DNA from: Bolinopsis microptera
Lineage: Eukaryota > Ctenophora > Tentaculata > Lobata > Bolinopsidae
Length of the DNA stretch: 64,000 nucleotides
Direction of reading: 5' to 3'
NCBI RefSeq assembly: GCF_026151205.1
Contig: NC_087082.1
Span: 20,732,494-20,796,493 of the forward strand
The position numbers and the translations under genes are program-made. Under the pieces are notes generated by a model. That model searched no databases and was not told the DNA's origin. It worked only from the letters and a program-made list of their open reading frames with translations. Positions 1-62,452 of this stretch are shown in pieces. Within the stretch, counting starts at the first letter, position 1. Each line of letters opens with the position of its first letter.

Positions 1-3000
1 TCTTCATTGACAAGAGTTCCGTCTACAGCAAGAGTTGATGTCTGTGTCCCTCCGGAGAAGCTTCCTTGGACAGGGGTGAACTTTTCAGCTGGAACTGGTC
101 CTGTACTAGTCCGCCAAGTTACTGTTGCTGTTTCAATAATTCCGATGATAACACAGGATATTGTTGTTGCAGAGCCTTTCTTTACTTCTTTGTTTACCGA
201 TTCAACGTCTGAAGTAAGTTTTGGTAATGGTACATTTACAAATCGTGCAATTATGGCTATTGTGTGATGATTGTATTTCATCGTGATAATATTGAGTTAA
301 ATTGAAAATTGATTGTAATATATAAAATCGTATAAATACAAAAAAACTACATTGCAAAAGAACTTCAGTTGGAGTTTAAAAAACATACCATAAACGTTCA
401 GATTGACAGTGGTATCCGAGTGGCTGGAATCAGGTAAAGATCCGGAAGTTATTCTGCAAGTGTAGGCAGTATCTTCATTGACAAGAGTTCCGTCTACAGC
501 AAGAGTTGATGTCTGTGTCCCTCCGGAGAAGCTTCCTTGGACAGGGGTGAACTTTTCAGCTGGAACTGGTCCTGTACTAGTCCGCCAAGTTACTGTTGCT
601 GTTTCAATAATTCCGATGATAACACAGGATATTGTTGTTGCAGAGCTTTTCTTTACTTCTTTGTTTACAGATTGAACGTCTGAAGTAAGCTTTGGTAATG
701 GTACATTTACAAATTGTGCAATTTATAACGCTCACTTGATATAAACATGTTGTTGTTCTGATAATGATTTAAATTGAAAGATGATTGCAAGATATAAAAT
801 CGTATAATATCAAAAAACTGCATTGCGAAAATATTTCAGTTGGAGTTTAAAGAACATACCATAAACATTAAGATTGACGGTGGTATCCGAGTGGCTGGAA
901 TCAGGTAAAGATCCGGAAGTTATTCTGCAAGTGTAAGCAGTATCTTCATTGACAAGAGTTCCGTCTACAGCAAGAGTTGATGTCTGTGTCCCTCCGGAGA
1001 AGCTTCCTTGGACAGGGGTGAACTTTTCAGCTGGAACTGGTCCTGTACTAGTCCGCCAAGTTACTGTTGCTGTTTCAATAATTCCGATGATAACACAGGA
1101 TATTGTTGTTGCAGAGCCTTTCTTTACTTCTTTGTTTACCGATTCAACGTCTGAAGTAAGTTTTGGTAATGGTACATTTACAAATCGTGCAATTATGGCT
1201 ATTGTGTGATGATTGTATTTCATCGTGATAATATTGAGTTAAATTGAAAATTGATTGTAATATATAAAATCGTATAAATACAAAAAACCTACATTGCAAA
1301 AGAACTTCAGTTGGAGTTTAAAGAACATACCATAAACGTTCAGATTGACAGTGGTATCCGAGTGGCTGGAATCAGGTAAAGATCCGGAAGTTATTCTGCA
1401 AGTGTAGGCAGTATCTTCATTGACAAGAGTTCCGTCTACAGCAAGAGTTGATGTCTGTGTCCCTCCGGAGAAGCTTCCTTGGACAGGGGTGAACTTTTCA
1501 GCTGGAACTGGTCCTGTACTAGTCCGCCAAGTTACTGTTGCTGTTTCGATAATTCCGATGATAACACAGGATATTGTTGTTGCAGAGCCTTTCTTTACTT
1601 CTTTGTTTACCGATTCAACGTCTGAAGTAAGTTTTGGTAATGGTACATTTACAAATTGTGCAATTTATAACGCTCACTTGATATAAACATGTTGTTGTTC
1701 TGATAATGATTTAAATTGAAAGTTGATTGTAAGATATAAAATCGTATAATATCAAAAAACTGCATTGCGAAAAAATTTCAGTTGGAGTTTAAAGAACATA
1801 CCATAAACGTTAAGATTGACAGTGGTATCCGAGTGGCTGGAATCAGGTAAAGATCCGGAAGTTATTCTGCAAGTGTAGGCAGTATCTTCATTGACAAGAG
1901 TTCCGTCTACAGCAAGAGTTGATGTCTGTGTCCCTCCGGAGAAGCTTCCTTGGACAGGGGTGAACTTTTCAGCTGGAACTGGTCCTGTACTAGTCCGCCA
2001 AGTTACTGTTGCTGTTTCAATAATTCCGATGATAACACAGGATATTGTTGTTGCAGAGCTTTTCTTTACTTCTTTGTTTACAGATTGAACGTCTGAAGTA
2101 AGCTTTGGTAATGGTACATTTACAAATTGTGCAATTTATAACGCTCACTTGATATAAACATGTTGTTGTTCTGATAATGATTTAAATTGAAAGATGATTG
2201 CAAGATATAAAATCGTATAATATCAAAAAACTGCATTGCGAAAATATTTCAGTTGGAGTTTAAAGAACATACCATAAACATTAAGATTGACGGTGGTATC
2301 CGAGTGGCTGGAATCAGGTAAAGATCCGGAAGTTATTCTGCAAGTGTAAGCAGTATCTTCATTGACAAGAGTTCCGTCTACAGCAAGAGTTGATGTCTGT
2401 GTCCCTCCGGAGAAGCTTCCTTGGACAGGGGTGAACTTTTCAGCTGGAACTGGTCCTGTACTAGTCCGCCAAGTTACTGTTGCTGTTTCAATAATTCCGA
2501 TGATAACACAGGATATTGTTGTTGCAGAGCCTTTCTTTACTTCTTTGTTTACCGATTCAACGTCTGAAGTAAGTTTTGGTAATGGTACATTTACAAATCG
2601 TGCAATTATGGCTATTGTGTGATGATTGTATTTCATCGTGATAATATTGAGTTAAATTGAAAATTGATTGTAATATATAAAATCGTATAAATACAAAAAA
2701 ACTACATTGCAAAAGAACTTCAGTTGGAGTTTAAAGAACATACCATAAACGTTCAGATTGACAGTGGCATCCGAGTGGCTGGAATCAGGTAAAGATCCGG
2801 AAGTTATTCTGCAAGTGTAGGCAGTATCTTCATTGACAAGAGTTCCGTCTACAGCAAGAGTTGATGTCTGTGTCCCTCCGGAGAAGTTTCCTTGGACAGG
2901 GGTGAACTTTTCAGCTGGAACTGGTCCTGTACTAGTCCGCCAAGTTACTGTTGCTATTTCAATAATTCCGATGATAACACAGAATATTGTTGTTGCAGAG

Positions 3001-6000
3001 CCTTTCTTTACTTCTTTGTTTACCGATTCAACGTCTGAAGTAAGTTTTGGTAATGGTACATTGACAAATTTTACAATTTATAACACTCGTGTGATAAGTA
3101 TATTTCGTCGTCATGAAAATGATTTAAATTGAAAGTTGATTGTAATATATAAAATTGTATAAAAACAAAAAAACTGCATTGCAAAAGAACTTCAGTTGGA
3201 GTTTAAAGAACATACCATAAACGTTAAGATTGACAGTGGTATCCGAGTGGCTGGAATCAGGTAAAGATCCGGAAGTTATTCTGCAAGTGTAGGCAGTATC
3301 TTCATTGACAAGAGTTCCGTCAACAGCAAGAGTTGATGTCTGTGTCCCTCCGGAGAAGCTTCCTTGGACAGGGGTGAACTTTTCAGCTGGAACTGGTCCT
3401 GTACTAGTCCGCCAAGTTACTGTTGCTGTTTCAATAATTCCGATGATAACACAGGATATTGTTGTTGCAGAGCCTTTCTTTACTTCTTTGTTTACCGATT
3501 CAACGTCTGAAGTAAGTTTTGGTAATGGTACATTGACAAATTTTACAATTTATAACACTCGTGTGATAATTTATTTCGTCGTCATGAAAATGATTTAAAT
3601 TGAAAGTTGATTGTAATATATAAAATCGTATAAAAACAAAAAAACTGCATTGCAAAAGAACTTCAGTTGGAGTTTAAAGAACATACCATAAACGTTAAGA
3701 TTGACAGTGGTATCCGAGTGGCTGGAATCAGGTAAAGATCCGGAAGTTATTCTGCAAGTGTAGGCAGTATCTTCATTGACAAGAGTTCCGTCAACAGCAA
3801 GAGTTGATGTCTGTGTCCCTCCGGAGAAGCTTCCTTGGACAGGGGTGAACTTTTCAGCTGGAACTGGTCCTGTACTAGTCCGCCAAGTTACTGTTGCTGT
3901 TTCAATAATTCCGATGATAACACAGGATATTGTTGTTGCAGAGCCTTTCTTTACTTCTTTGTTTACCGATTCAACGTCTGAAGTAAGTTTTGGTAATGGT
4001 ACATTGACAAATTTTACAATTTATAACACTCGTGTGATAATTATATTTCGTCGTCATGAAAATGATTTAAATTGAAAGTTGATTGTAATATATAAAATCG
4101 TATAAAAACAAAAAAACTGCATTGCAAAAGAACTTCAGTTGGAGTTTAAAGAACATACCATAAACGTTAAGATTGACAGTGGTATCCGAGTGGCTGGAAT
4201 CAGGTAAAGATCCGGAAGTTATTCTGCAAGTGTAGGCAGTATCTTCATTGACAAGAGTTCCGTCAACAGCAAGAGTTGATGTCTGTGTCCCTCCGGAGAA
4301 GCTTCCTTGGACAGGGGTGAACTTTTCAGCTGGAACTGGTCCTGTACTAGTCCGCCAAGTTACTGTTGCTGTTTCAATAATTCCGATGATAACACAGGAT
4401 ATTGTTGTTGCAGAGCCTTTCTTTACTTCTTTGTTTACCGATTCAACGTCTGAAGTAAGTTTTGGTAATGGTACATTGACAAATTTTACAATTTATAACA
4501 CTCGTGTGATAATTATATTTCGTCGTCATGAAAATGATTTAAATTGAAAGTTGATTGTAATATATAAAATCGTATAAAAACAAAAAAACTGCATTGCAAA
4601 AGAACTTCAGTTGGAGTTTAAAGAACATACCATAAACGTTAAGATTGACAGTGGTATCCGAGTGGCTGGAATCAGGTAAAGATCCGGAAGTTATTCTGCA
4701 AGTGTAGGCAGTATCTTCATTGACAAGAGTTCCGTCAACAGCAAGAGTTGATGTCTGTGTCCCTCCGGAGAAGCTTCCTTGGACAGGGGTGAACTTTTCA
4801 GCTGGAACTGGTCCTGTACTAGTCCGCCAAGTTACTGTTGCTGTATCAATAATTCCGATGATAACACAGGATATTGTTGTTGCAGAGCCTTTCTTTACTT
4901 CTTTGTTTACCGATTCAACGTCTGAAGTAAGTTTTGGTAATGGTACATTGACAAATTTTACAATTTATAACACTCGTGTGATAATTATATTTCGTCGTCA
5001 TGAAAATGATTTAAATTGAAAGTTGATTGTAATATATAAAATCGTATAAAAACAAAAAAACTGCATTGCAAAAGAACTTCAGTTGGAGTTTAAAGAACAT
5101 ACCATAAACGTTAAGATTGACAGTGGTATCCGAGTGGCTGGAATCAGGTAAAGATCCGGAAGTTATTCTGCAAGTGTAGGCAGTATCTTCATTGACAAGA
5201 GTTCCGTCAACAGCAAGAGTTGATGTCTGTGTCCCTCCGGAGAAGCTTCCTTGGACAGGGGTGAACTTTTCAGCTGGAACTGGTCCTGTACTAGTCCGCC
5301 AAGTTACTGTTGCTGTTTCAATAATTCCGATGATAACACAGGATATTGTTGTTGCAGAGCCTTTCTTTACTTCTTTGTTTACCGATTCAACGTCTGAAGT
5401 AAGTTTTGGTAATAGTACATTGACAAATTTTACAATTTATAACACTCGTGTGATAATTATATTTCGTCGTCATGAAAATGATTTAAATTGAAAGTTGATT
5501 GTAATATATAAAATCGTATAAAAACAAAAAAACTGCATTGCAAAAGAACTTCAGTTGGAGTTTAAAGAACATACCATAAACGTTAAGATTGACAGTGGTA
5601 TCCGAGTGGCTGGAATCAGGTAAAGATCCGGAAGTTATTCTGCAAGTGTAGGCAGTATCTTCATTGACAAGAGTTCCGTCAACAGCAAGAGTTGATGTCT
5701 GTGTCCCTCCGGAGAAGCTTCCTTGGACAGGGGTGAACTTTTCAGCTGGAACTGGTCCTGTACTAGTCCGCCAAGTTACTGTTGCTGTTTCAATAATTCC
5801 GATGATAACACAGGATATTGTTGTTGCAGAGCCTTTCTTTACTTCTTTGTTTACCGATTCAACGTCTGAAGTAAGTTTTGGTAATAATACATTGACAAAT
5901 TTTACAATTTATAACACTCGTGTGATAATTATATTTCGTCGTCATGAAAATGATTTAAATTGAAAGTTGATTGTAATATATAAAATCGTATAAAAACAAA

Positions 6001-9000
6001 AAAACTGCATTGCAAAAGAACTTCAGTTGGAGTTTAAAGAACATACCATAAACGTTAAGATTGACAGTGGTATCCGAGTGGCTGGAATCAGGTAAAGATC
6101 CGGAAGTTATTCTGCAAGTGTAGGCAGTATCTTCATTGACAAGAGTTCCGTCAACAGCAAGAGTTGATGTCTGTGTCCCTCCGGAGAAGCTTCCTTGGAC
6201 AGGGGTGAACTTTTCAGCTGGAACTGGTCCTGTACTAGTCCGCCAAGTTACTGTTGCTGTTTCAATAATTCCGATGATAACACAGGATATTGTTGTTGCA
6301 GAGCCTTTCTTTACTTCTTTGTTTACCGATTCAACGTCTGAAGTAAGTTTTGGTAATGGTACATTGACAAATTTTACAATTTATAACACTCGTGTGATAA
6401 TTTATTTCGTCGTCATGAAAATGATTTAAATTGAAAGTTGATTGTAATATATAAAATCGTATAAAAACAAAAAAACTGCATTGCAAAAGAACTTCAGTTG
6501 GAGTTTAAAGAACATACCATAAACGTTAAGATTGACAGTGGTATCCGAGTGGCTGGAATCAGGTAAAGATCCGGAAGTTATTCTGCAAGTGTAGGCAGTA
6601 TCTTCATTGACAAGAGTTCCGTCAACAGCAAGAGTTGATGTCTGTGTCCCTCCGGAGAAGCTTCCTTGGACAGGGGTGAACTTTTCAGCTGGAACTGGTC
6701 CCGTACTAGTCCGCCAAGTTACTGTTGCTGTTTCAGTTATTCCGATGATAACACAGGATATTGTTGTTGCAGAGCCTTTCTTTACTTCTTTGTTTACCGA
6801 TTCAACGTCTGAAGTAAGTTTTGGTAATGGTACATTGACAAATTTTACAATTTATAACACTCGTGTGATAATTATATTTCGTCGTCATGAAAATGATTTA
6901 AATTGAAAGTTGATTGTAATATATAAAATCGTATAAAAACAAAAAAACTGCATTGCAAAAGAACTTCAGTTGGAGTTTAAAGAACATACCATAAACGTTA
7001 AGATTGACAGTGGTATCCGAGTGGCTGGAATCAGGTAAAGATCCGGAAGTTATTCTGCAAGTGTAGGCAGTATCTTCATTGACAAGAGTTCCGTCAACAG
7101 CAAGAGTTGATGTCTGTGTCCCTCCGGAGAAGCTTCCTTGGACAGGGATGAACTTTTCAGCTGGAACTGGTCCTGTACTAGTCCGCCAAGTTACTGTTGC
7201 TGTTTCAATAATTCCGATGATAACACAGGATATTGTTGTTGCAGAGCCTTTCTTTACTTCTTTGTTTACCGATTCAACGTCTGAAGTAAGTTTTGGTAAT
7301 GGTACATTGACAAATTTTACAATTTATAACACTCGTGTGATAATTATATTTCGTCGTCATGAAAATGATTTAAATTGAAAGTTGATTGTAATATATAAAA
7401 TCGTATAAAAACAAAAAAACTGCATTGCAAAAGAACTTCAGTTGGAGTTTAAAGAACATACCATAAACGTTAAGATTGACAGTGGTATCCGAGTTGCTGG
7501 AATCAGGTAAAGATCCGGAAGTTATTCTGCAAGTGTAGGCAGTATCTTCATTGACAAGAGTTCCGTCAACAGCAAGAGTTGATGTCTGTGTCCCTCCGGA
7601 GAAGCTTCCTTGGACAGGGGTGAACTTTTCAGCTGGAACTGGTCCTGTACTAGTCCGCCAAGTTACTGTTGCTGTTTCAATAATTCCGATGATAACACAG
7701 GATATTGTTGTTGCAGAGCCTTTCTTTACTTCTTTGTTTACCGATTCAACGTCTGAAGTAAGTTTTGGTAATGGTACATTGACAAATTTTACAATTTATA
7801 ACACTCGTGTGATAATTATATTTCGTTGTCATGAAAATGATTTAAATTGAAAGTTGATTGTAATATATAAAATCGTATAAAAACAAAAAAATTGCATTGC
7901 AAAAGAGCTTCAGTTGGAGTTTAAAGAACATACCATAAACGTTAAGATTGACAGTGGTATCCGAGTGGCTGGAATCAGGTAAAGATCCGGAAGTTATTCT
8001 GCAAGTGTAGGCAGTATCTTCATTGACAAGAGTTCCGTCAACAGCAAGAGTTGATGTCTGTGTCCCTCCGGAGAAGCTTCCTTGGACAGGGGTGAACTTT
8101 TCAGCTGGAACTGGTCCTGTACTAGTCCGCCAAGTTACTGTTGCTGTTTCAATAATTCCGATTATAACACAGGATATTGTTGTTGCAGAGCCTTTCTTTA
8201 CTTCTTTGTTTACCGATTCAACGTCTGAAGTAAGTTTTGGTAATGGTACATTGACAAATTTTATAATTTATAACACTCGTGTGATAATTATATTTCGTCG
8301 CCATGAAAATGATTTAAATTGAAAGTTGATTGTAATATGTAAAATCGTATAAAAACAAAAAAACTGCATTGCAAAAGAACTTCAGTTGGAGTTTAAAGAA
8401 CATACCATAAACGTTAAGATTGACGGTGGTATCCGAGTGGCTGGAATCAGGTAAAGATCCGGAAGTTATTCTGCAAGTGTAGGCAGTATCTTCATTGACA
8501 AGAGTTCTGTCAACAGCAAGAGTTGATGTCTGTGTCCCTCCGGAGAAGCTTCCTTGGACAGGGATGAACTTTTCAGCTGGAACTGGTCCTGTACTAGTCC
8601 GCCAAGTTACTGTTGCTGTTTCAATAATTCCGATTATAACACAGGATATTGTTGTTGCAGAGCCTTTCTTTACTTCTTTGTTTACCGATTCAACGTCTGA
8701 AGTAAGTTTTGGTAATGGTACATTGACAAATTTTATAATTTATAACACTCGTGTGATAATTATATTTCGTCGCCATGAAAATGATTTAAATTGAAAGTTG
8801 ATTGTAATATATAAAATCGTATAAAAACATAAAAACTGCATTGCAAAAGAACTTCAGTTGGAGTATAAGAACATACCATAAACGTTAAGATTGACGGTGG
8901 TATCCGAGTGGCTGGAATCAGGTAAAGATCCGGAAGTTATTCTGCAAGTGTAGGCAGTATCTTTATTGACAAGAGTTCCGTCAACAGCAAGAGTTGATGT

Positions 9001-11640
9001 CTCTGTCCCTCCGGAGAAGCTTCCTTGGACAGGGGTGAACTTTTCAGCTGGAACTGGTCCTGTACTAGTCCGCCAAGTTACTGTTGCTGTTTCAATAATT
9101 CCGATGATAACACAGGATATTGTTGTTGCAGAGCCTTTCTTTACTTCTTTGTTTACCGATTCAACGTCTGAAGTAAGTTTTGGTAATGGTACATTGACAA
9201 ATTTTACAATTTATAACACTCGTGTGATAATTATATTTCGTCGTCATGAAAATGATTTAAATTGAAAGTTGATTGTAATATATAAAATCGTATAAAAACA
9301 TAAAAACTGCATTGCAAAAGAACTTCAGTTGGAGTATAAGAACATACCATAAACGTTAAGATTGACGGTGGTATCCGAGTGGCTGGAATCAGGTAAAGAT
9401 CCGGAAGTTATTCTGCAAGTGTAGGCAGTATCTTTATTGACAAGAGTTCCGTCAACAGCAAGAGTTGATGTCTCTGTCCCTCCGGAGAAGCTTCCTTGGA
9501 CAGGGGTGAACTTTTCAGCTGGAACTGGTCCTGTACTAGTCCGCCAAGTTACTGTTGCTGTTTCAATAATTCCGATGATAACACAGGATATTGTAGTTGC
9601 AGAGCTTTTCTTTACTTCTTTGTTTACAGATTGAACGTCTGAAGTAAGTTTTGGTAATGGTACATTTACAAATTGTGCAATTTATAACGCTCACTTGATA
9701 TAAACATGTTGTTGTTCTGATAATTATTTAAATTGAAAGTTGACTGTAAGATATAAAATCGTATAATATCAAAAAACTGCATTGCGAAAAAATTTTTGTT
9801 GTAGTTTAAAGAACATACCATAAACATTAAGATTGACGGTGGTATCAGAGTGGCTGGAATCAGGTAAAGATCCGGAAGTTATTCGGCAAGTGTAAGCAGT
9901 ATCTTCATTGACAAGAGTTCTGTCAACAGCAAGAGTTGATGTCTGTGTCCCTCCGGAGAAGCTTCCTTGGACAGGGGTGAACTTTTCAGCTGGAACTGGT
10001 CCTGTACTAGTCCGCCAAGTTACTGTTGCTGTTTCAATAATTCCGATGATAACACAGGATATTGTTGTTGCAGAGCCTTTCTTTACTTCTTTGTTTACCG
10101 ATTCAACGTCTGAAGTAAGTTTTGGTAATGGTACATTGACAAATTTTACAATTTATAACACTCGTGTGATAATCGTATTTCGTCGTCATGAAAATAATTT
10201 AAATTGAAAGTTGATTGTAATATATAAAATTGTATAAATACAAAACAACTACATTGCAAAATTGCTTCAGTTGGAGTTTAAAGAACATACCATAAACGTT
10301 TAGATTGACGGTGGTATCCGAGTGGCTGGAATCAGGTAAAGATCCGGAAGTTATTCTGCAAGTGTAGGCAGTATCTTCATTGACAAGAGTTCCGTCTACA
10401 GCAAGAGTTGATGTCTGTGTCCTTCCGGAGAAGCTTCCTTGGACAGGGGTGAACTTTTCAGCTGGAACTGCTCCTGTACTAGTCCGCCAAGTTACTGTTG
10501 CTGTTTCAATAATTCCGATGATAACACAGGATATTGTTGTTGCAGAGCCTTTCTTTACTTCTTTGTTTACCGATTCAACGTCTGAAGTAAGTTTTGGTAA
10601 TGGTACATTTACAAATTGTGCAATTGTGACTATCGTGTGATAATTGTATTTCGTCGTGATGACATTGAGTTAAATTGAAAGTTGATTGTAATATATAAAA
10701 TCGTATAAATACAAAAAAAAACTACATTGCAAAAGAACTTCAGTTGGAGTTTAAAGAACATACCATAAACGTTTAGATTGACAGTGGTATCCGAGTGGCT
10801 GGAATCAGGCAAAGATCCGGAAGTTATTCTGCAAGTGTAGGCAGTATCTTCATTGACAAGAGTTCCGTCTACAGCAAGAGTTGATGTCTGTGTCCCTCCG
10901 GAGACGCTTCCTTGGACAGAGGTAAACTTTTCAGCTGGAACTGGTCCCGTACTAGTCCGCCAAGTTACTGTTGCTGTTTCAGTTATTCCGATGATAACAC
11001 AGGATATTGTTGTTGCAGAGCCTTTCTTTACTTCTTTGTTTACCGATTCAACGTCTGAAGTAAGTTTTGGTAATGGTACATTTACAAATTGTGCAATTAT
11101 GACTATCGTGTGATAATTGTATTTCGTCGTGATGATATTGAGTTAAATTGAAAGTTGATTGTAATATATAAAATCGTATAAATACAAAACAACTACATTG
11201 CAAAAGAACTTCAGTTGGAGTTTAAAGAACATACCATAAACGTTTAAATTGACGGTTGTATCCGAGTGGCTGGAATCAGGTAAAGATCCGGAAGTTATTC
11301 TGCAAGTGTAGGCAGTATCTTCATTGACAAGAGTTCCGTCTACAGCAAGAGTTGATGTCTGTGTCCCTCCGGAGAAGCTTCCTTGGACAAGGGTGAACTT
11401 TTCAGCTGGAACTGGTCCTGTACTAGTCCGCCAAGTTACGGTTGCTGTTTCAATAATTCCGATGATAACACAGGATATTGTTGTTGTGGAGCCTTTCTTT
11501 ACTTCTTTGTTAACTGATTCAACGTCTGAAGTAAGTTTTGGTAATGGTACATTTACAAATTGTGCAATTATTACTATCGTGTGATAATTGTATTTCGTCG
11601 TGATGATATTGAGTTAAATTGAAAGTTGATTGTAATATAT
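1..11640 (-). repeat. Tandem array of ~471-bp Ig exon/intron units (25 copies)
   Basis: Units of 471-473 bp repeat head to tail, each one Ig exon plus an intron of about 180 bp. Exons on the minus strand are: <1-208, 389-679, 860-1150, 1331-1621, 1802-2092, 2273-2563, 2744-3034, 3216-3506, 3687-3977, 4159-4449, 4631-4921, 5103-5393, 5575-5865, 6047-6337, 6518-6808, 6990-7280, 7462-7752, 7934-8224, 8406-8696, 8877-9167, 9348-9638, 9819-10109, 10291-10581, 10764-11054 and 11235-11525. Both exon and intron are nearly identical between neighbours, so the expansion or homogenisation is recent. Plus-strand open frames across the array are antisense shadows of the Ig exons. Confidence 0.95.
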
Positions 11641-13794
11641 TTTAGACGGCCCCAATGTTAATGTGGCTCTTGCTATGTGTTGGTTCAGCCGAATTAATTA
11701 TTATGTAATCAAGTTTATTTTTCTCTTTCAGTTAGTTGTCATCCGGCCAAACATTAAGCAACTTATATTGCAGTTCCATTTATCAATTAGTTTATCAAAA
11801 TATGTCATTGTAATTTTGCATGGCTGAAATGTAACGCTTGATTTATATATAATAATTAATTGAATTTTCAAATTTTAAAAAATTAAAAAAATCGTATAAA
11901 TACAAAAAAACTACATTGCAAAAGAACTTCAGTTGGAGTTTAAAGAACATATTTTTTGTCAAAAATTAATTTTATGAAGGAGTAAGTTGACAAAAGATGC
12001 GCATTCGTAAATTCATTTATTGCATGTTTAATTTGTTTTTTGTGTTTAGTTTACGATTATTTGCATTTGAGATTCTGCGATTAAATTTATTTTGTTGATT
12101 GTAATGTTATGATATTGCATAATTTATTGTAAATGTAATATATGTTTCAGAAAATTATGTAATGTAACGTGATGGAGGTTCTTTAAGCGGGAAATTCCAG
12201 TCCAAACCCTGGAAACATGACATAAAGGATTTGTTTTACTTGTTGCATGAAAAGCACTAATACCATAAACGTTAAGATTGACGGTGGTATCCGAGTGGCT
12301 GGAATCAGGTAAAGAACCGGAAGTGACTCTGCAAGTGTAGGCAGTATCTTTATTGACAAGAGTTCCGTCTACAGCAAGAGTTGATGTCTGTGTCCCTCCG
12401 GAGAAGCTTCCTTGGACAGGGGTGAACTTTTCAGCTGGAACTGGTCCCGTACTAGTCCGCCAAGTTACTGTTGCTGTTTCAATAATTCCGATGATAACAC
12501 AGGATATTGTTGTTGTGGAGCCTTTCTTTACTTCTTTGTTAACTGATTCAACGTCTGAAGTAAGTTTTGGTAATGGTACGTTTACAAATTGTGCAATCTA
12601 TATCGTTCGCATGATTTAAACATTGCATTTATTTATTCACGTACGCGTAAATTGAAATTGCCTTCATTTCAAGTTTGTTTGAAACATTTTTTATCCTTTA
12701 GACGTAGCTACCCACTTAACAAATGTTATAAAAACAACATCTTATTTGAAAAGTTTGTTTTAGAATTGATGCATAGGAGCAACTTAAAATAATAATAATT
12801 GACAGTGTTTTGACGCCATCAACCGAAGGCAAAGTAATCTACACCGCTAAAATCGCCCTTGTAACTTTACCATAAAATGTACATGTTATGAGTATGACGG
12901 GTGTATTTCATGAGAATTTCATATTGGAGAGAGGGTAATAACATTCATTTATGAATTAATTTTGTTCATCAATATCTTATGAACACAATATTTACAAAAT
13001 CTTTTGTGTCATAATGTTTAGAATCGAGGAAAATAATTGATAGAAATTGGTCTATGGTATAAAGTTGTACCTAGACTGATGAGCACTATATCTCTTCCGA
13101 TGATAACTATCTCATATACGTAGACATATCCATAAGAACCCCCTCTAATAACAACTGTGTCTCCAGTCTTACAATCAGAAGGAACGTTGTCAGGTACTGT
13201 TCCATCCTCAGAGTACACTGACACGGGCCACCAAGTGGGATAGTTAGTGCAGTAGTGACCACTTATACAGGTACACACATCTCTCGAGCATATGTGCTTG
13301 TTATACGGGTAAGCGTGTTGATGTGTGGTGTAATGGTGCACTTCCTCTACACAGTAGGTCTTTCCTAGCTTAGCTTTAAACCAGGGGTCAGAGTCATATG
13401 ATGCTGTATGAGCGTTTGTGCCTAAATTCTTGTCTATGCCATTAGTTGCCACATAACTAGAGCTAAGCGTTGATGATAAAGAGACGGATACAGGTGTTAT
13501 CTCGTTATCTACTGCAGGTAAAATGTCACCTGAAATATAACCACGATAAATTATATAATGTTTTAGCACTTAGTAATAGTACTAATAATATTGCAGTATC
13601 TATAATTATAGCTATAATTTATTTGATTGTCACATATAGCCTATTAATTCTGGTCAATATCATATGCATACAGTCAGTAGTAATGACTTTATAGAACAGT
13701 AAATAATGATTCTGTTGTAAGGTGGTGCAATACAACATTTACCTTGAATGGGTAAACACAAAAGAGCCGTTAAGATAATTGTTGTTATCTTCAT
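1..13794 (-). CDS. Secreted/surface protein: signal peptide, fucolectin-like domain, at least 26 tandem Ig domains (3' end off window)
   Basis: Exon 1 (13794-13743) encodes the signal peptide MKITTIILTALLCLPIQG and ends in phase 1. Exon 2 (13529-13071, 459 nt) encodes an F5/8-C or fucolectin (FTP)-like domain: an N-terminal strand, the NGIDKN segment, a DPWFKAKLG motif, Cys pairs, and a closing YEIVIIGRD strand. Then come Ig exons: 12554-12264, followed by 25 more from 11525 to the left edge. Each is 291 nt, or 97 codons, and starts after CTTACTTCAG and ends before GTATGTT. Each Ig unit has the B-strand Cys (TISC), C-strand Trp (VTWRTST) and F-strand EDTAYTC. All internal exons are phase 1-1, so units can be added or skipped without breaking the frame. 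No transmembrane segment or stop is visible because the 3' part is outside. A lectin plus Ig architecture suggests an extracellular recognition or adhesion role; that is inference. It could instead be a structural matrix protein. Confidence 0.85.
11637..12263. other. Intron with inserted sequence between Ig exons
   Basis: The usual intron repeat is interrupted after GTAATATAT by about 250 bp of unrelated sequence. This insert starts near TTTAGACGGCCCC and ends in an A/T-rich tail around 11890. About 50 bp of normal intron repeat then resumes up to 11949, and another unrelated stretch runs to 12260. The A-rich end suggests retrotransposed material, but no clear target duplication is visible. 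Confidence 0.5.
12264..12554 (-). CDS. First Ig exon of the array gene, set apart from the others
   Basis: This is the 5'-most Ig exon in gene order. It is joined in phase 1 to the fucolectin-like exon upstream and to exon 11525-11235 downstream. It is separated from the uniform array by 738 bp rather than about 180 bp. It shares the residue change STTTISC (instead of SATTISC) with the neighbouring copy at 11235-11525, which marks these two as a distinct subgroup. Its donor reads GTATTAG rather than the array's GTATGTT. Confidence 0.8.
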
Positions 13795-24997: not shown

Positions 24998-25610
24998 TTA
25001 CCACTTTTTAATATTGTATGTGCAGTCAAGGTAAATATCTAGAGATGAGTCCGAATTGAGATGAGCTTTGACGTAAAGTTTTCTGAGTCTAGGATCCTTA
25101 TGAACACATGACAGTCCTTCTAATAATACCTTGTCATTTATTGCATCGTAGTACCGGTCATGTCCCTTTATGTAGACATGGTAATCTCTTGATTCGTTGT
25201 ACACCCATAAACTCGGCCTGATCGTAAAATCTATGAGGATTGAATTTTTACTATCATGTCCATTTTCGTTGCGACTAAGTTTCCAATACCATTTCCAATA
25301 TCACTGTGCAATGTTTGGTGCTGTGTCACTTTTCCTGTAACATGATCGAAATTTGTTAAAGTCCCATCCGGAGGAACCCCCTCTGGATAAACTTTGACAA
25401 TACGGCAGTATCTTTCACTTGTCCTTCCCCCGTTTCAGGCCCCTTCTGTGCTTCAGTACATAACTTTCTGCAGCACTGTTTGTGGCTCTTCCAGTCCTTC
25501 TTCTGACATTGATTATTACAATACCAAGCTGATTTACAGGCGCTACATTTCAGTAAATCTGGTCCTTTTTTATCACAGGAGCCGCACACTTTACTAACCA
25601 AATCGCTCAT
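24998..25610 (-). pseudogene. MYND zinc-finger gene with two apparent frameshifts
   Basis: The start at 25610 follows a TTTTGCAG acceptor-like sequence. Residues 9-52 form a complete MYND finger: CGSC, CSAC, WYCNNQC and HKQCC, supplying seven Cys and one His ligands. After the finger the frame moves by -1 at a G5 run near 25432, continuing as YCRIVKVYPEGVPPDG. It moves by -1 again near 25293, continuing as WYWKLSRNENGHDSKN to a stop at 24998. About 200 residues result if all three segments belong together. No intron signals explain the shifts, so this is either a decayed gene copy or base errors in the assembly. MYND fingers bind proline-rich partner peptides. The C-terminal part is not recognised. 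Confidence 0.6.
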
Positions 25611-26889
25611 TCTGCAAAATATTTGTAAAACTAAAAAACTAAATTGATATCTAATCTTGTTTACGTTATAAGTGAACAATCCCGAAAACATCTTTCAAAT
25701 TCTATGTAATACTTGATATACTTAAGTCGATCCTGACTAACATTAACCAAGAAAAGAGAACAGAAACAACATAGAACAATTTAGAAAAAGGAGAGTAGCC
25801 ATGTTTGGCTGGCAGAACCAATTGGTTTGGTATATGATACCTAAGATATGTCTGAATGAAGTATGTATACTGAATAAGTCCAATGAAAACAATTGCTGAA
25901 TAAAATACGATGTTAAAGGTTAGAAGAACGTGTAACTAGCCACTATATAACAAATCGTGTCGCAACGTTACTTGGTAACACTTATTGCTGAAAAACAGGT
26001 TATCATCAGGTGACACACAAAGGAGTACGAAGGTATTATCTGTTATAGATATAATAATGCCTGAACAACACTCTACGTTATGAAAAAATTTGGTAATATG
26101 ATGCGCTTAATATCTTAGTTCCCAAAAATTTGTGTGCCAAAACATTTAGGTTAATAATTTTGAGTACCAACAATTTGGGCAAGAAATTCGAACTTTTTTG
26201 GGCGACGAAAAATTTTGGCATTTATTTTTTAGAGACGAGGTAATTTTGCTCTCTTATTAATAATATTTTATCAGTTTTGGAAAATCATAAAATGATCATA
26301 CTGAAAACAAAAAGGCAATAGTAGCTTATTTTATTTAGATTTATTAGTGTCGACGGCAGTTAAGTCAAGCAACTGGCATTGAGGCAGTAGATCAGTAGAT
26401 GGCCAACTTATTGATTTTAGGCATATATGGCATATGCGAATATATTTTACCCGTGCAATTCTCAAGGCATGGGATAACTCGTTGATTCCTTCCATTTTCC
26501 ATATCAAACCACAAACATTGGTCGAATATGCTGACCTGCATACAGTTCTTTGATAAAATCCTTCTTCCCTATATTATTGAGTCTGTTCGATAAACCTGAC
26601 TAGAAAATACTATTTATATGGGATGTATTTCGAGCTCGACAGTCAACATACAGAATTCATAAAAGATGTGATGGTGGCGAACAGAAAGTTCTGGCTAAAA
26701 TGACACTACACTTCCAACCACTCTACGTAACCATTAATGGTATTGCTTCAAATGCGTAGCAAATACGAAAATGTAATTATCCATCTGTTTCAAGAATGAG
26801 TCTCACTCTCTCTATTCACTTCGAGATGGCAGGGCCTACTCTCATGCTGTCTATAGGTGATGATTAATTCTGAAAAACTAGGGACAACT
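25611..26889. other. No supported gene
   Basis: This is AT-rich sequence upstream of the MYND gene, with no exon model or recognisable repeat beyond short homopolymers. Confidence 0.4.
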
Positions 26890-31393: not shown

Positions 31394-34300
31394 TCATTTT
31401 AGCTTACATGTTACACTTTCAGACGTTCGATCATCGTTGGAGGCGGCGGCGTTTTCATAAATGTTGTCAGCTTGGTTTGGGACGGCACTGGCGCTGATCG
31501 TCATTGCCTGAGTTAACGGGGCTACTGATCTACCGGCGGCAGCGGCGGCGAAAGATATTGTAGCGGTCCTCCTCTCCTCTTGGAGCCCAACCTTAACCAG
31601 CCAGTGAGACGTGACCTGGTCGTTGAGCACTATGTAGAACAGGAATACAAATATGCCCTGAAAGTTTACATGGATAATTATCTCCGTTTGTAGTGCAATT
31701 AACCATTTTTCGTCTTTAATTTTCATAATGATGATATACTTGTGTGGTGGGTATCGATATTATCAATTATGATACTTTAAAGATAACATCTAATTCGGAA
31801 GAAGGATAAAGAAGGCTGTAGAAAACACGCGCATACCTGAGAACTATTAAGAAGAATGAACAGATACTGCATCCCCGCTTGGAACTGAGGGGCTGGGAGG
31901 GACATGAATATTCCAAAGAACCAGCCTGTTCCAAGCAAGACCATCACACCGACTGCTGATTTAACCCATATAATACCAACAACTCTAAACGTTCGAATTT
32001 TTTGATGAAATTTTGTTTCCTAAGCACTGAGGTACCAACTCTGACGGTGCAATAATTATTTTGAAAAAATTTATATTTTTTATAGCTTTTTCGACCCGTA
32101 CTTTTAAAAGTTCATTGTTGGAGCTTGCGTTTTTGGAACATTGCATCGTACTTTTAAAAGTACATCATATTTGAATGATGTACTTTTAAAAGCACGGGTT
32201 TAATAAATAATGTACTTTTAAAAGTACGGGTTTAATGAATAGTGTACTTCTGGAGGTATGTTACTTAATTAAACAGAAACTCAGGGTCAGATAATAAAAC
32301 TAAAAGCCCTTGTCAGAATGGCTGAATAAAATTTAAACAATACCATACAAAATTTAAGTGGTACACTAAACAAATCATGATGGTGGGAACAGCTATACTT
32401 ATAAACTACTATCATAATTCCATTTACCAATTTACTAGAATTTTACGAAAATTGTCAGGTTTTGTGCTTTTTACTCTAACTGATGATAAGGCTTAAAACA
32501 AAGCACACAAAGCGCAACGTCACACACTTCGCACTTAGCCAGACGCTTTTCACAACTTAAAGAATACCTAAAATGGTGAGAATGAGAAGAGAGTAGCAGA
32601 AGCTGAGAAAGTTCTAGAGGAACTCAAACAGAAGAGAGTAGCAGAAGCTGAGGGAGTTCTAGAGGAGCAGAAGAGAGTAGCAGAAGCTGAGGGAGTTCTA
32701 GAGGAACAGAAGAGAGTAGCAGAAGCTGAGAGAGTTCTAGAGGAGCAGAAGAGAGTAGCAGAAGCTGAGAGAGTCTAGAGGAACAGAAGAGAGTAGCAGA
32801 AGCTGAGAGAGTTCTAGAGGAACAGAAGAGAGTAGCAGAAGCTGAGAGAGTTCTAGAGGAGCAGAAGAGAGTAGGAGAAGCTGAGAGAGTTCTAGAGGAG
32901 CAGAAGATAGTAGCAGAAGCTGAGAGAATTCTAGAGGAGCAGAAGAAGGTAGCAGAAGCTGAGAGAGTTCTAGAGGAACAGAAGAGAGTAGCAGAAGCTG
33001 AGGGAGTTCTAGAGGAGCAGAAGAGAGTAGCAGAAGCTGAGAGAGTTCTAGAGGAGCAGAAGAAGGTAGCAGAAGCTGAGCGTATTCTAGAGGAACAGAA
33101 GAGAGTAGCAGAAGCTGAGAGAATTCTAGAGGAACAGAAGAGAGTAGCAGAAGCTGAGGGAGTTCTAGAGGAGCAGAAGAGAGTAGCAGAAGCTGAGAGA
33201 GTTCTAGAGGAGCAGAAGAGAGTAGCAGAAGCTGAGAGAGTCTAGAGGAACAGAAGAGAGTAGCAGAAGCTGAGAGAGTTCTAGAGGAGCAGAAGAAGGT
33301 AGCAGAAGCTGAGCGTATTCTAGAGGAACAGAAGAGAGTAGCAGAAGCTGAGAGAGTTCTAGAGGAGCAGAAGAAGGTAGCAGAAGCTGAGCGTATTCTA
33401 GAGGAACAGAAGAGAGTAGCAGAGGTGGAGAGAGTTCTAGAGGAACAAAGAGAGTAGCAGAGGTTGAGAGAGTTCTAGAGGAAAAGAAAATAGTAGCAGA
33501 AACTGAGAGAGTTCTAGAGGAACAGAAGAGAGTAGCAGAAGCTGAGAGAGTTCTAGAGGAACAAAAGAGAGTAGCAGAAGCTGAGAGAATTTAGAGGAAC
33601 AGAAGAGAGTAGCAGAAGCTGAGAGAGTTCTAGAGGAACAGAAGAGAGTAGCAGAAGCTGAGCGTATTCTAGAGGAACAGAAGAGAGTAGCAGAAGCTGA
33701 GAGAGTTCTAGAGGAACAGAAGAGAGTAGCAGAAGCTGAGGGAGTTCTAGAGGAGCAGAAGAGAGTAGCAGAAGCTGAGAGAGTTCTAGAGGAGCAGAAG
33801 AGAGTAGCAGAAGCTGAGAGAGTCTAGAGGAACAGAAGAGAGTAGCAGAAGCTGAGAGAGTTCTAGAGGAGCAGAAGAAGGTAGCAGAAGCTGAGCGTAT
33901 TCTAGAGGAACAGAAGAGAGTAGCAGAAGCTGAGAGAGTTCTAGAGGAGCAGAAGAAGGTAGCAGAAGCTGAGCGTATTCTAGAGGAACAGAAGAGAGTA
34001 GCAGAGGTGGAGAGAGTTCTAGAGGAACAAAGAGAGTAGCAGAGGTTGAGAGAGTTCTAGAGGAAAAGAAAATAGTAGCAGAAACTGAGAGAGTTCTAGA
34101 GGAACAGAAGAGAGTAGCAGAAGCTGAGAGAGTTCTAGAGGAACAAAAGAGAGTAGCAGAAGCTGAGAGAATTTAGAGGAACAGAAGAGAGTAGCAGAAG
34201 CTGAGAGAGTTCTAGAGGAACAGAAGAGAGTAGCAGAAGCTGAGAAAGTTCTAGAGGAGCAGGAGAGAGTAGCAGAAGCTGAGAGAGTCTAGAGGAACAG

Positions 34301-37300
34301 AAGAGAGTAGCAGAAGCTGAGAGAGTTCTAGAGGAACAGAAGAGAGTAGCAGAAGCTGAGAGAGTTCTAGAGGAACAGAAGAGAGAAGCAGAAGCTGAGA
34401 GAGTTCTAGAGGAGCAGAAGAGAGTAGGAGAAGCTGAGAGAGTTCTAGAGGAGCAGAAGATAGTAGCAGAAGCTGAGAGAATTCTAGAGGAGCAGAAGAA
34501 GGTAGCAGAAGCTGAGAGAGTTCTAGAGGAGCAGAAGAGAGTAGCAGAAGCTGAGAGAATTCTAGAGGAGCAGAAGAAGGTAGCAGAAGCTGAGAGAGTT
34601 CTAGAGGAGCAAAAGAGAGTAGCAGAAGCTGAGAGAGTTCTAGAGGAGCAGAAGAAGGTAGCAGAAGCTGAGCGTATTCTAGAGGAACAGAAGAGAGTAG
34701 CAGAGGTGGAGAGAGTTCTAGAGGAGCAGAAGATAGTAGCAGAAACTGAGAGAGTTCTAGAGGAACAGAAGAGAGTAGCAGAAGCTGAGAGAGTTCTAGA
34801 GGAACAAAAGAGAGTAGCAGAAGCTGAGAGAGTTTAGAGGAACAGAAGAGAGTAGCAGAAGCTGAGAGAGTTCTAGAGGAACAGAAGAGAGTAGCAGAAG
34901 CTGAGAAAGTTCTAGAGGAGCAGGAGAGAGTAGCAGAAGCTGAGAGAGTCTAGAGGAACAGAAGAGAGTAGCAGAAGCTGAGAGAGTTCTAGAGGAACAG
35001 AAGAGAGTAGCAGAAGCTAAGAGAGTTCTAGAGGAGCAGAAGAGAGTAGCAGAAGCTGAGAAAGTTCTAGAGGAGCAGAAGAGAGTAGCAGAAGCTGAGC
35101 GTATTCTAGAGGAACAGAAGAGAGTAGCAGAAGCTTTGAGAGTTCTAGAGGAACAGAAGAGAGTAGCAGAAGCTGAGACAATTCTAGAGGAACAGAAGAG
35201 AGTAGCAGAGGCTGAGACAATTCTAGAGGAGCAGAACAACTCAGCTGAGGAAATGCATAGACTACAAGGAAAGGAATCTTATGTTGGACCAGCAGATTGC
35301 TGATGGCACACAATCATGTCAGTATTTGATAGTAATTATACATCGGGATTAGGAAACCAGTTACAAGATCTAGGATTGTAAACATTAAGCGGGGGAGGGG
35401 GGATCAGGTACCAAGTGCCGTACGTGACGTCGACTAAGTGCAACTTTGGAATTTACAAAAAAGACCCACCCACCCCCTTCGCGGTACTAACTGTTTTTTT
35501 TTCGGATAATATTTAGGACACCCACCCCTTTTGCGGTACTAACTGTTGAGAAATCACGGTACTGACTGTGTCTTGGTATATAAAATAAGATACCCACCCA
35601 TAAATTGCTTTAAACAGTTCATTAAACATTGGGAAATGGGCAAATTATACCCACTATTTAGTAGGGGTTTTGTTTTCAATGCAGTCGAATTAAATAAAAA
35701 GTTACAAAAAAAGGAAACAAAATAAAAAAACCCAAAAAAAAGGAAAAAAACCTCAAAACCAAAAACAAACCATTCCCAATATTGAAATTTGAGGTAAAAT
35801 GGATATTTTGGGGTTGGACACCCCCTTAGTACCTTGTACTAACTGATTTTCTGGGAAATGAGCAGCAGACCCACCACTTAGTACAAATGTACTAACTGTG
35901 TTTTGGAAGAAAATATGACCCACCCCCCCCCCCCTAACGTCACGTACGATTCTGACCTTATGTTCCCCCCACCCCCGCATTAACTCATTAAGAAAGAGTA
36001 TATTGAAGGCCGCTCTGGAAGACGTGGAATAACCGAGTGAAAACGTGGATCCTTCAAGATCGACTAAATCCCAGAAGTAACAACAACAAGTTTTTGTTGT
36101 GACTTCCGTTCTGATTCAGAACAATTTACCTACCATTACAGTCTTACCGACATTAATCATACCAGCACACATTGTGTAGTCTATATAAACCTGTACTTTT
36201 AAAAGTACATTTTTCTTGAAACCTGTCCTTTTAAAAGTACATCATTCGAAGATAATGTACTTTTAAAAGTACGTACTTTTGAAAGTACATCATTGTCCAG
36301 AATGATGTACTTTTAAAAGTACACCCAATTTACATCTCAATTAGAGACAATTTATGATTTTTATCTCGCCCCACATTATTGCCTATTTATTGCACAATCG
36401 TTTAGGCAATATTAAAAAACCAAATTTGGGATCCATCAAAGTTGGAGAATTGGCTGGTGGTACCGAGAATTTACCTTTTTTCAAAGTAACATTTTTGACC
36501 ACCTTTGCCAACATCCTATAAATTTCTTGCTTTTTTTAACCATCTGGTCAGGGTGTTAAAATCATCAGCAGACTTTTTCTAACCTAATGCAAAAAACTGT
36601 ATCAAAAAATATTTGTCATGAGACAAGTTAGGTCACTGTTTATGAACCGTACTTTTAAAAGTACCGTGGAAGAATATGGGTTAAGCTGCCGCTGAAGTTA
36701 GTTTAAGAATTTTTGCGATATTAAAATGAAGCATATGAAAAGTAAAACAAACCAGACAACAGGCCAGATGATAAACAATTCTTCGATCATATTGAAAGAC
36801 GCTAAATATTATCAACCTTAGAACTCACTAAAATTTGTCCCCGATCAGAGATGTTGCCGGATGAGTTTGAGTTCTTATTAATCACTTTGGCAACCAGTGC
36901 GAAGAATACAAGGTTCACCAAGATAACCAAGACAATGGGGGCTAGGAAGAGAGTGTAGAAGGATGTACTTTCAGGTCGGATAAAGCACATAGTGTCCGCT
37001 AGGTACCCGTGTTCTGTGAAAGTGAAGCTACCTACGGTGTGCCGCTTCGTGAAGACGAAATATCCGATGAATGGTATCGGTAGAGGGATACCTAGAATAT
37101 GGTCAGGTAATTTGTATGATAAGAGTATATAATTATACTCTTCTTATTTGAAAAACAATCGAATAACCAAGATTATGCAAGTGCTCAGATAGAGAAAATA
37201 TAAGATTGAATAATAATATTATAATAACATACCCCATGCCGCGAGGTTAAACTTCAGCATACACTTTGAGATATGAGATCCGAACACTTGTACGAGAGAA

Positions 37301-60712: not shown

Positions 60713-61990
60713 TCAAGGGTAAATTTGTTCAATGACTCTTAGACAAGGACTAAGATCAATCTTAGTGTGATATGAGCCAGTAGATGTGTTGCAGATCACT
60801 TCCTTCGCGTTCTCGTTCATTAAGACAAGGTCTTCGTTGATACACGTGACGACATATTTGTAGTCGTCGGATTCAGCAATTTCAACCTGAAAATGACATC
60901 CTTGACTCACTGAGTGTGGATAGAAAATGGACTAATCAACTCGGGAAGAAGAAAAGATTTATATTCAAGTTTTAAACTGAGCTTTGTACCTAATATTAGT
61001 ATTACATCTGTATAAAACTGACCTTTTTCAAAAGTGTATTCGGAGGCGTACGAGGTGGTTTACAGCGTAGTTTGATCTTTAGGTTCGTCTCGTCAGTACT
61101 GAATTCGAATCCAGTCTCCAACTTGATCCTGATAGTGATATGATGGGTCATTCAATTTGAATACATTTGTAATACTAATTAATGTAGCCACTACTACTAG
61201 CCAACAACAGACGACGTTAATTTGGACCATGCCTGGAACTGGAAGTGGAAGTTGAATAAATTCAGAAAGTTGCTTTACGGCAAAAGAATTCATGATCAAA
61301 TGTATAATCGAGATTTAATGTACAAAACGCCGTTGAATGGATCATTCAAGAAATTTCTAAGCTAGCACAGTTCGAATGACTTAAAACCTGAAACTGTAAT
61401 GACCACCGTCACAAAAGTAAACGTCCTCTAAACGATGTGAGATTGTGTAGGGACCCGATACTGCAGAGAAGTCTGGAAGGGATATTGGAATATCCTTGTT
61501 TCCTTCTGAGAAAGATACTATTATAGTCTAGTTACAAATACAAAACAAACCTAACCTGTATTTTGTTTTTTTAATCTGTACATGAACCGACTGTCTCTAA
61601 ATTTGTTTAATGCATTATTTTACCTGTACTATATTATTATTATCAATTTATTTAGTGTTGCCGCCAGCCGCAGCTATACTATATACTACTAGGCCTTCTG
61701 ACTTCTGTTAATATTTTGGTAGAAGTTCAAACAGTGAACCACACAAATTAAAAAATTTTTAAAAATGTCAATGAAAGTGAATTGTAACTGAAAAAGTACA
61801 ACAAAGTACAAACCTTTATAGTGAAGGAATACACTCAATGGCTTTATGTCTCCAAGGACTGACATTGTAAAGAATGCAGTCGACCTTTCAAAAACGGCCT
61901 TTACTTTTGAAATTGTTGCTTGAGCTGACTTGACGCATATCATGTCACATGTTTGCTGTTGACCCGAAAGGAAAATGACTGCTCTGTAGT
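60713..61990 (-). CDS. Unrecognised protein, last four exons
   Basis: Exons 61990-61814 (phase 1-1, 177 nt), 61505-61388 (118 nt), 61128-61023 (106 nt) and 60886-60713 (174 nt, stop TGA) join with consistent phases through GT-AG introns. The 191-residue C-terminus contains YRAVIFLSGQQQTCDMICV, FERSTAFFTMSV, HRLEDVYFCDGGHYSF, LKIKLRCKPPRTPP and YVVTCINEDLVLM. It is Cys-containing and beta-rich, so probably extracellular. I cannot name the fold. The first exon found begins in phase 1, so at least one exon, probably the signal peptide, lies to the right, beyond or inside the LINE insertion. Confidence 0.65.
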
Positions 61991-62452
61991 CTGAAAAATA
62001 AAATAAAAATTGACAACTTCAGATATAAAAATGCATTTTTTAATTTAATTTTGCATTCTGGGTTAAAACTTTATTAAACACTTGAGCCTTTCTAGCCAGA
62101 TTGATTTCCCTCTGACTTCTATATTAGAGAGTATCAGCTTAGAAGCTTATAGTATTAGGGGGACGCCCCATCACGGGATTTCTAGGACTTGTTTAAGCGT
62201 ATAAAATACATTTACTATATGGGCTATAGCAGCGTTATTTCAGCAATTTCTTGTTTAATGATTCATACATCTACTAGTAATAAGATGTGTGATTGCGTGT
62301 GTTTTTATCATTTTGTTTTTTGTCATTGTACAATAACTACTACGTCATTCTTTGCAATATTGGGAGAAACGGTACTAGACTCAATACTAGCTTTACTCGT
62401 CACGAACTTAGTGAAAATAACTTTAGAGCGGCGGCTAATTTCAGAATTTACA
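61991..62452. other. Sequence between the gene tail and LINE ORF2
   Basis: Probably intron of the minus-strand gene and the 5' part of the LINE. The LINE frame is open upstream to an ATG at about 62284, but similarity to the endonuclease fold starts only after 62480. Confidence 0.4.

Follow-up and report, generated by a model that had tools for sequence, protein, structure and literature searches.

A lectin-type head on a homogenised immunoglobulin array: a candidate modular recognition family in the ctenophore Bolinopsis microptera

We analysed a stretch of 64,000 nucleotides from the genome of the ctenophore Bolinopsis microptera (the window), which lies on contig NC_087082.1, written C11 below, at C11:20732494-20796493 of a 264.65-Mb assembly and has a GC content of 38.8%. 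Its minus strand carries the 5' part of a gene, here called the lectin-headed gene, in which a leader exon and a single head exon are followed by a long array of immunoglobulin (Ig) exons. Both the head and the Ig exons have relatives elsewhere in the genome, and comparing them suggests that the diversity of this family probably lies in the lectin-type heads and not in the Ig repeats.

The gene opens with an ATG at 13794 in a 52-nt exon (13794-13743) with a phase 1 donor, coding for a hydrophobic leader that resembles a signal peptide by eye. The head exon (459 nt, 13529-13071) is phase 1-1. Behind it, all 25 complete Ig exons in the window are exactly 291 nt long and phase 1-1, with an AG acceptor and a GT donor (GTATGT in 24 of the 25, GTATTA in one), and a 26th (208-1) runs into the window edge and is incomplete. 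The joined frame in the window reads 2595 aa with 0 stops, so the exon chain is open and confirms the combination of lectin head, signal-peptide-like exon and Ig array that had been proposed from the letters alone (the sequence-only reading). Tandem Repeats Finder reports the array with a period of 472, 24.7 copies and 96% matches, which excludes chance as its origin. The first step between Ig units is 1029 nt and all later ones, from unit 2 onward, are 471-473 nt, and thus units 2 to 25 form an unbroken series. All the exons are on the minus strand:

13743..13794, minus: exon 1, start codon and hydrophobic leader, signal-peptide-like by eye, phase 1 donor
13071..13529, minus: exon 2, head, predicted F-type-lectin-like jelly roll, 459 nt, phase 1-1
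12264..12554, minus: Ig exon 1, 291 nt, phase 1-1
11235..11525, minus: Ig exon 2
10764..11054, minus: Ig exon 3
10291..10581, minus: Ig exon 4
9819..10109, minus: Ig exon 5
9348..9638, minus: Ig exon 6
8877..9167, minus: Ig exon 7
8406..8696, minus: Ig exon 8
7934..8224, minus: Ig exon 9
7462..7752, minus: Ig exon 10
6990..7280, minus: Ig exon 11
6518..6808, minus: Ig exon 12
6047..6337, minus: Ig exon 13
5575..5865, minus: Ig exon 14
5103..5393, minus: Ig exon 15
4631..4921, minus: Ig exon 16
4159..4449, minus: Ig exon 17
3687..3977, minus: Ig exon 18
3216..3506, minus: Ig exon 19
2744..3034, minus: Ig exon 20
2273..2563, minus: Ig exon 21
1802..2092, minus: Ig exon 22
1331..1621, minus: Ig exon 23
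860..1150, minus: Ig exon 24
389..679, minus: Ig exon 25
1..208, minus: Ig exon 26, incomplete at the window edge, spanned by a genome match at C11:20732412-20732699

The claim of at least 26 near-identical Ig exons running off the window, all of them phase 1-1 with intact splice sites, was borne out for the 25 complete exons and extended by the neighbouring DNA. The array runs past the window start to C11:20713889 and holds 51 Ig exons (25 in the window, the truncated one, one search match cut by the locus edge and 24 complete ones in the outside DNA), which is an assembly count, units 10-19 differing by only 0-6 bases. The 49 exons recovered whole all have 291 nt and AG/GT ends and keep both cysteines and the tryptophan (49 of 49). 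Because the exon scan depends on frames free of stops, it could miss decayed units outside the window. Five gaps disrupt the unit spacing in the outside part of the array, and none of them holds an exon-like remnant. Two contain sequence that recurs at window 44.6-46.4 kb and 55.7-57.2 kb, and because of this recurrence they look like mobile element insertions; the other three have no match elsewhere in the window. At the first of these window regions (44634-46412) is a large element whose inverted arms consist of short repeats of the AGCGCTGG type, and a copy related to it lies in the array gap C11:20721500-20722850. The second (55651-57193) is a dispersed repeat with 85-86% identity to the gap sequence C11:20727704-20729900. 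Downstream of the last unit follow intron-split Ig halves, exons A-E. Exons A, B and E are present in two other genes at 94-98% identity, C and D occur there too, and these two paralogues are 96% identical to each other over 2.87 kb from just before exon E. None of the hydrophobic stretches in the 3' regions of the paralogues is a convincing membrane anchor.

The Ig identity of the repeat is supported by a Pfam C1-set match of unit 1 (24.1 bits against a curated cut-off of 21) and by an AlphaFold2 (AF2) model with a seven-strand fold, for which Foldseek returns Ig domains of myosin-binding-protein C, titin, NCAM, MuSK and Dscam. The 49 whole exons encode 34 distinct proteins that lie 0-6 of 97 residues from the commonest one. 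Their distinct variants comprise 48 synonymous and 52 non-synonymous changes over 73 and 215 sites, and the pooled ratio of non-synonymous (pN) to synonymous (pS) differences per site is 0.26, compared with 0.49 in the 24 units of a second array. Diversity is 0.020 in the exons and 0.083 in the introns between 23 window units, about fourfold lower in the exons. Short-range amplification blocks are present: units 10-19 make up one in which the copies are nearly identical, and units 20-24 repeat with a period of three, 20 and 23 differing by 6 bases and 21 and 24 by 0. The units of the two arrays, 3.3 Mb apart, intermix on a tree (15 parsimony switches, 73 units), for which reason array-private clades were rejected, and their mean distance is 0.085 and 0.054 within the two arrays and 0.072 between them. 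The sequence-only reading had called the copies homogenised, and the few residue differences, the amplification blocks and the intermixed arrays agree with it. Such a pattern would be expected from recurrent unequal exchange together with purifying selection, and we regard the Ig copies as a putative constrained, homogenised stalk and not as a repertoire.

The head had been called fucolectin-like, a description that holds for its predicted fold, an F-type-lectin-like jelly roll in the AF2 model (pLDDT 85), and less well for its sequence, which matches Pfam F5/8C with an E-value of 0.025, below the cut-off. A sequence search of the PDB gave a single match with an E-value of 6.2, and Pfam contains no fibrinogen match for the head at E<=1. 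The first loop varies between 8 and 18 residues in length, and the head loops are rich in tyrosine (16% against 3.8% elsewhere).

Site models, using a codon model built for this analysis, give the strongest indication that the heads diversify under selection. For nine C11 heads, the ratio of non-synonymous to synonymous rates (omega) is 1.59 and a selected class raises the log-likelihood (lnL) by 56.5 (2dlnL 113), with 29% of sites at omega 6.9 and 48% near zero. Nine heads of the type found with CCP modules give a 2dlnL of 132.5, and of the 14 columns selected in them, 10 are shared with the 34 of the C11 heads. When codons within two columns of gaps are dropped, 2dlnL is still 95.7 and 97.6, while 15 simulated data sets free of selection have a maximum of 3.3 and a control of 20 Ig exons from six genes has an omega of 0.34. 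In the AF2 model the selected residues account for 28 of 61 positions in loops 18-48, 67-75, 90-101 and 129-138, for 1 of the 24 positions in the alternate loops and for 2 of the 66 other positions, where the loop limits are taken from the AF2 strands and the loop pattern was framed after the selected sites were seen. Judged from strand order rather than coordinates, these loops would lie together at one end of the barrel. Loop pN also exceeds the divergence of the 5' intron in 21 of 21 pairs (L009-L015), and that of the 3' intron in 7 of 7 pairs with a 3' intron divergence <0.2. Columns picked in the C11 heads and tested in the CCP heads gave 1.74, with an interval that excludes no difference.

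A genome search with the head exon, in which 150 of 210 candidates were scored, found at least 128 matches at E<=0.001. Among the scored candidates, the eight closest full-length relatives have 73-84% identity and are all on C11, and no second head match falls within the gene's own C11 stretch. We examined 30 loci around the best matches (L009-L038); L010-L038 were compared with Ig, CCP, P0004 C-terminal and P0003 sequences, and open frames were read in nine. Downstream of the head, the best 22 loci (L009-L030) carry Ig domains in six cases, CCP modules in nine and TSP1 in one, with no body recognised within the 1.5 kb flank in the other six; L031-L038 matched none of the four kinds of comparison sequence. 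Two loci, L025 and L028, are probably parts of a single gene on C13 that codes for the annotated head-plus-sushi protein P0004, and the best CCP match of L028 is upstream of its head. P0004 has two heads and ten sushi matches, which suggests a similar array behaviour with CCP modules, and by eye it ends in a transmembrane segment and a short tail. In L023, L024, L027 and L030, ZP-N-like exons were recognised by eye downstream of CCP-type heads, and a segment put together from L024 and L023 has a Pfam ZP-N match with an E-value of 1.3e-7.

The Ig arrays too have varied partners. Further arrays of the same type are present on C2 and C4, with single scored matches on C7 and C13. Upstream of the C4 array (L047, C4:4868801-4874800) are a divergent head and an F5/8-type lectin exon that is more canonical and contains the motif AVDGN, and upstream of the C2 array are other Ig domains and, farther up, a CUB exon. 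With such varied upstream and downstream partners, heads and arrays therefore behave as separate modules. In locus L013 the 5' intron is 99% like that of the lectin-headed gene and the 3' intron differs by 7-8% from those of L016 and L017, with TSP1 as the body, a combination that suggests recombination among heads.

At the other end of the window lies part of a neighbouring paralogous gene, whose own head is outside the window at C11:20816474-20816938:

60997..62077, minus: probable 3' exons of the neighbouring lectin-headed Ig-array gene, 91-96% identity to the 3' part of a third gene

These exons come after an insertion relative to the relative at C11:17.4 Mb. Between the two genes the window holds several other features. 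About 68 copies of a 39-bp unit at 32585-35236 encode a charged 13-residue repeat (EEQKRVAEAERVL-like) and are likely a coiled-coil minisatellite. On the minus strand, two open frames at 36802-37875 match a secretin-type (7tm_2) receptor, and 44107-48921 probably contains fragments of a gene resembling VPS13, with a VPS13_C match at 44107-44643 and a 579-aa frame (47182-48921) that has a ricin-B-type match below the cut-off. Also on the minus strand, 49490-51191 holds a P2RX7_C match (E 7e-18) adjoining an open frame that resembles a THAP zinc finger by eye, and an open frame at 25356-25694 is by eye MYND zinc finger-like.

The explanation we favour, with moderate confidence, is a modular recognition family of ctenophores in which a homogenised stalk carries a variable head. 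It builds on the computed exon structure, array length in the assembly, Ig constraint, selection signal in the head loops and occurrence of heads beside different bodies. The gene would encode a giant extracellular recognition protein, presumably secreted or at the cell surface, from one mRNA joining head and array. The head loops at one barrel end would form the ligand-contact surface, perhaps for glycans, and would be under diversifying selection, and the tandem Ig domains would serve as the constrained stalk. The number of Ig domains might change within populations by unequal crossing-over or gene conversion, phase 1-1 exons permitting gain or loss of copies without damage to the frame. Diversity in the family as a whole would arise from duplicated heads, evolving loops and recombination between heads and bodies rather than from a choice among Ig exons. 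It is possible, and we suggest it only tentatively, that this amounts to a self/non-self or microbial recognition system evolved independently in ctenophores, with a multichromosomal head repertoire and positively selected, tyrosine-rich loops like the complementarity-determining regions (CDRs) of antibodies. In that case heads would swap bodies by recombination and be shown on Ig or CCP stalks of individually variable length.

Several observations weigh against this modular family. The fucose motif H-X24..26-RXDX4(R/K) was found in 0 of 25 heads (spacings of 20-32 and 24-26 were tried), as was the cation (calcium) motif hhDG(N/D/S), and because both fail in all 25 we rejected the head as a true F-type lectin despite its fold. 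The tree-free tests point in the same direction as the site models and are weaker: pN/pS pooled over every head column is 1.29 (bootstrap 0.95-1.80) for the C11 heads and 0.95 (0.70-1.31) for the CCP heads, and columns chosen in the CCP heads and tested in the C11 heads gave 1.55, with an interval that spans no difference. In a blanket tally, loop pN lies above both introns in 5 of 36 pairs, a low figure because the introns of many pairs align poorly. Loop pS is raised as well (0.148 against 0.077), for which multiple hits, gene conversion or old alleles may be responsible, head recombination can inflate site-model tests, and the Ig control is itself weakly positive (2dlnL 7.8, p 0.02, 1% of sites). 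The match between the lectin-headed gene and the two paralogues breaks off only a few bases from where exon E ends. A search for a membrane anchor in C11:20702001-20714000 (minus strand) found four hydrophobic stretches, none of them convincing or in the exon chain, and on account of this and the divergence after exon E the copy could be truncated. One Ig match among the 150 scored, in the neighbouring gene, has an in-frame stop, and protein searches found no annotated lectin-headed Ig-array protein.

Some of these points bear on the explanation that the copy number is mis-assembled or the gene non-functional. Units 10-19 are close to identical, the 3' part is unlike that of the two paralogues, two of the five array gaps contain repeats common to other parts of the window, and a stop-bearing unit occurs in the neighbouring paralogue. 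We nevertheless consider an artefact or decaying locus improbable, as the 25 complete window exons are open, intact in their splice sites and regularly spaced, the exons are four times less diverse than the introns, and 34 distinct unit proteins as well as similar arrays in other genes exist. No more likely in our view is a Dscam-like recognition locus whose diversity comes from the choice or omission of single Ig exons. The window units are all symmetric and in frame, so that subsets could be spliced, and of the suggestion that copy number or exon choice diversifies the protein the first half survives in so far as array length could change in frame. The exons are near-identical and constrained (pN/pS 0.26, diversity 0.020 against 0.083 in introns), and exon choice would thus alter length and not specificity; we rejected it as a source of diversity on these grounds. 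There is also no pairing signal between the two long leading introns and one array intron, the longest complementary run being 9 nt with a shuffle mean of 9.5-9.7.

Two other explanations accept a functional head and assign it a different role. In the first, the heads are sperm-egg lectins like oyster bindin, under sexual or species-recognition selection. ZP domains are known from egg coats, and the ZP-N-like exons downstream of CCP-type heads in four loci would fit such a role. According to passages of PMC5712786, oyster bindin owes the diversity of its F-lectin repeats to positive selection on the binding pocket, to recombination and to repeat number. The head is not itself repeated in the lectin-headed gene, though, the scanned parts of the Ig-type genes have no ZP match, and at least 128 head-like matches genome-wide seem in our judgement many for gamete proteins, which makes this role rather unlikely. 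Unlikely too, and less credible to us, is a lectin-tipped tether, for instance an adhesive of colloblasts or mucus, in which the Ig array would act as a mechanical spacer and self/non-self recognition would play no part. The Foldseek matches to myosin-binding-protein C and titin agree with a spacer, albeit as a shared fold only, and according to passages of PMC6278862 sushi and lectin categories are enriched among Mnemiopsis colloblast candidate genes, a set that includes the Ig domain PF13927. Strong diversifying selection at one end of the head would be unexpected in a generic adhesive, unless it were driven by prey.

If the modular family is what it appears to be, the heads with their loop-specific selection are concrete candidates for what ctenophores recognise. 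Allorecognition, gamete choice and pathogen recognition in ctenophores become testable by sequencing heads from many individuals. The results also suggest a division of labour between a variable head and a constrained, homogenised stalk. PMC11797021 gives a count of Ig-domain genes, and the passages of it that we consulted contain no description of a lectin-headed Ig-array family. A literature search of titles and abstract openings gave none either, which is a weak test of its absence from print.

Several known systems can be compared with this family. Cnidarian Alr-type allorecognition receptors have a membrane anchor and a signalling tail, and their allelic polymorphism predicts fusion; here the region searched (C11:20702001-20714000) gave no convincing anchor. 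Dscam, with its hypervariable Ig exons, likewise places such exons in tandem within a single gene, but here they are near-identical, constrained and symmetric, and the small intron test gave no signal of mutually exclusive splicing. DMBT1 (SRCR), LPA (kringle IV) and CR1 are copy-number-variable arrays of symmetric domains, and they resemble the present array in having homogenised in-frame domain exons whose number can be changed by unequal crossing-over. In the ctenophore gene the repeat is an Ig domain, the array is capped by a positively selected lectin-like head, and we infer the copy-number variation. Mollusc FREPs combine a lectin-like recognition domain with Ig domains in one secreted protein. 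The lectin-headed gene likewise joins such a domain to Ig domains; its head is not fibrinogen and comes first, and its Ig array is far longer. With the F-type lectins (eel and fish fucolectins, oyster sperm bindin) the heads have the predicted jelly-roll fold in common and, as described in passages of PMC5712786, a concentration of variation in loops at one barrel end. The same passages report an association of F-type lectins with CCP and transmembrane domains, and positive selection and recombination in oyster bindin. Positive selection on lectin loops is found in our heads as well, strongly by site models and more weakly by tree-free tests. Unlike F-type lectins, the heads lack the fucose and calcium motifs, and in place of the tandem lectin repeats of bindin the lectin-headed gene has one head exon, on a long Ig array and in a ctenophore. 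The C4 array gene seems to include a second lectin exon that is more canonical.

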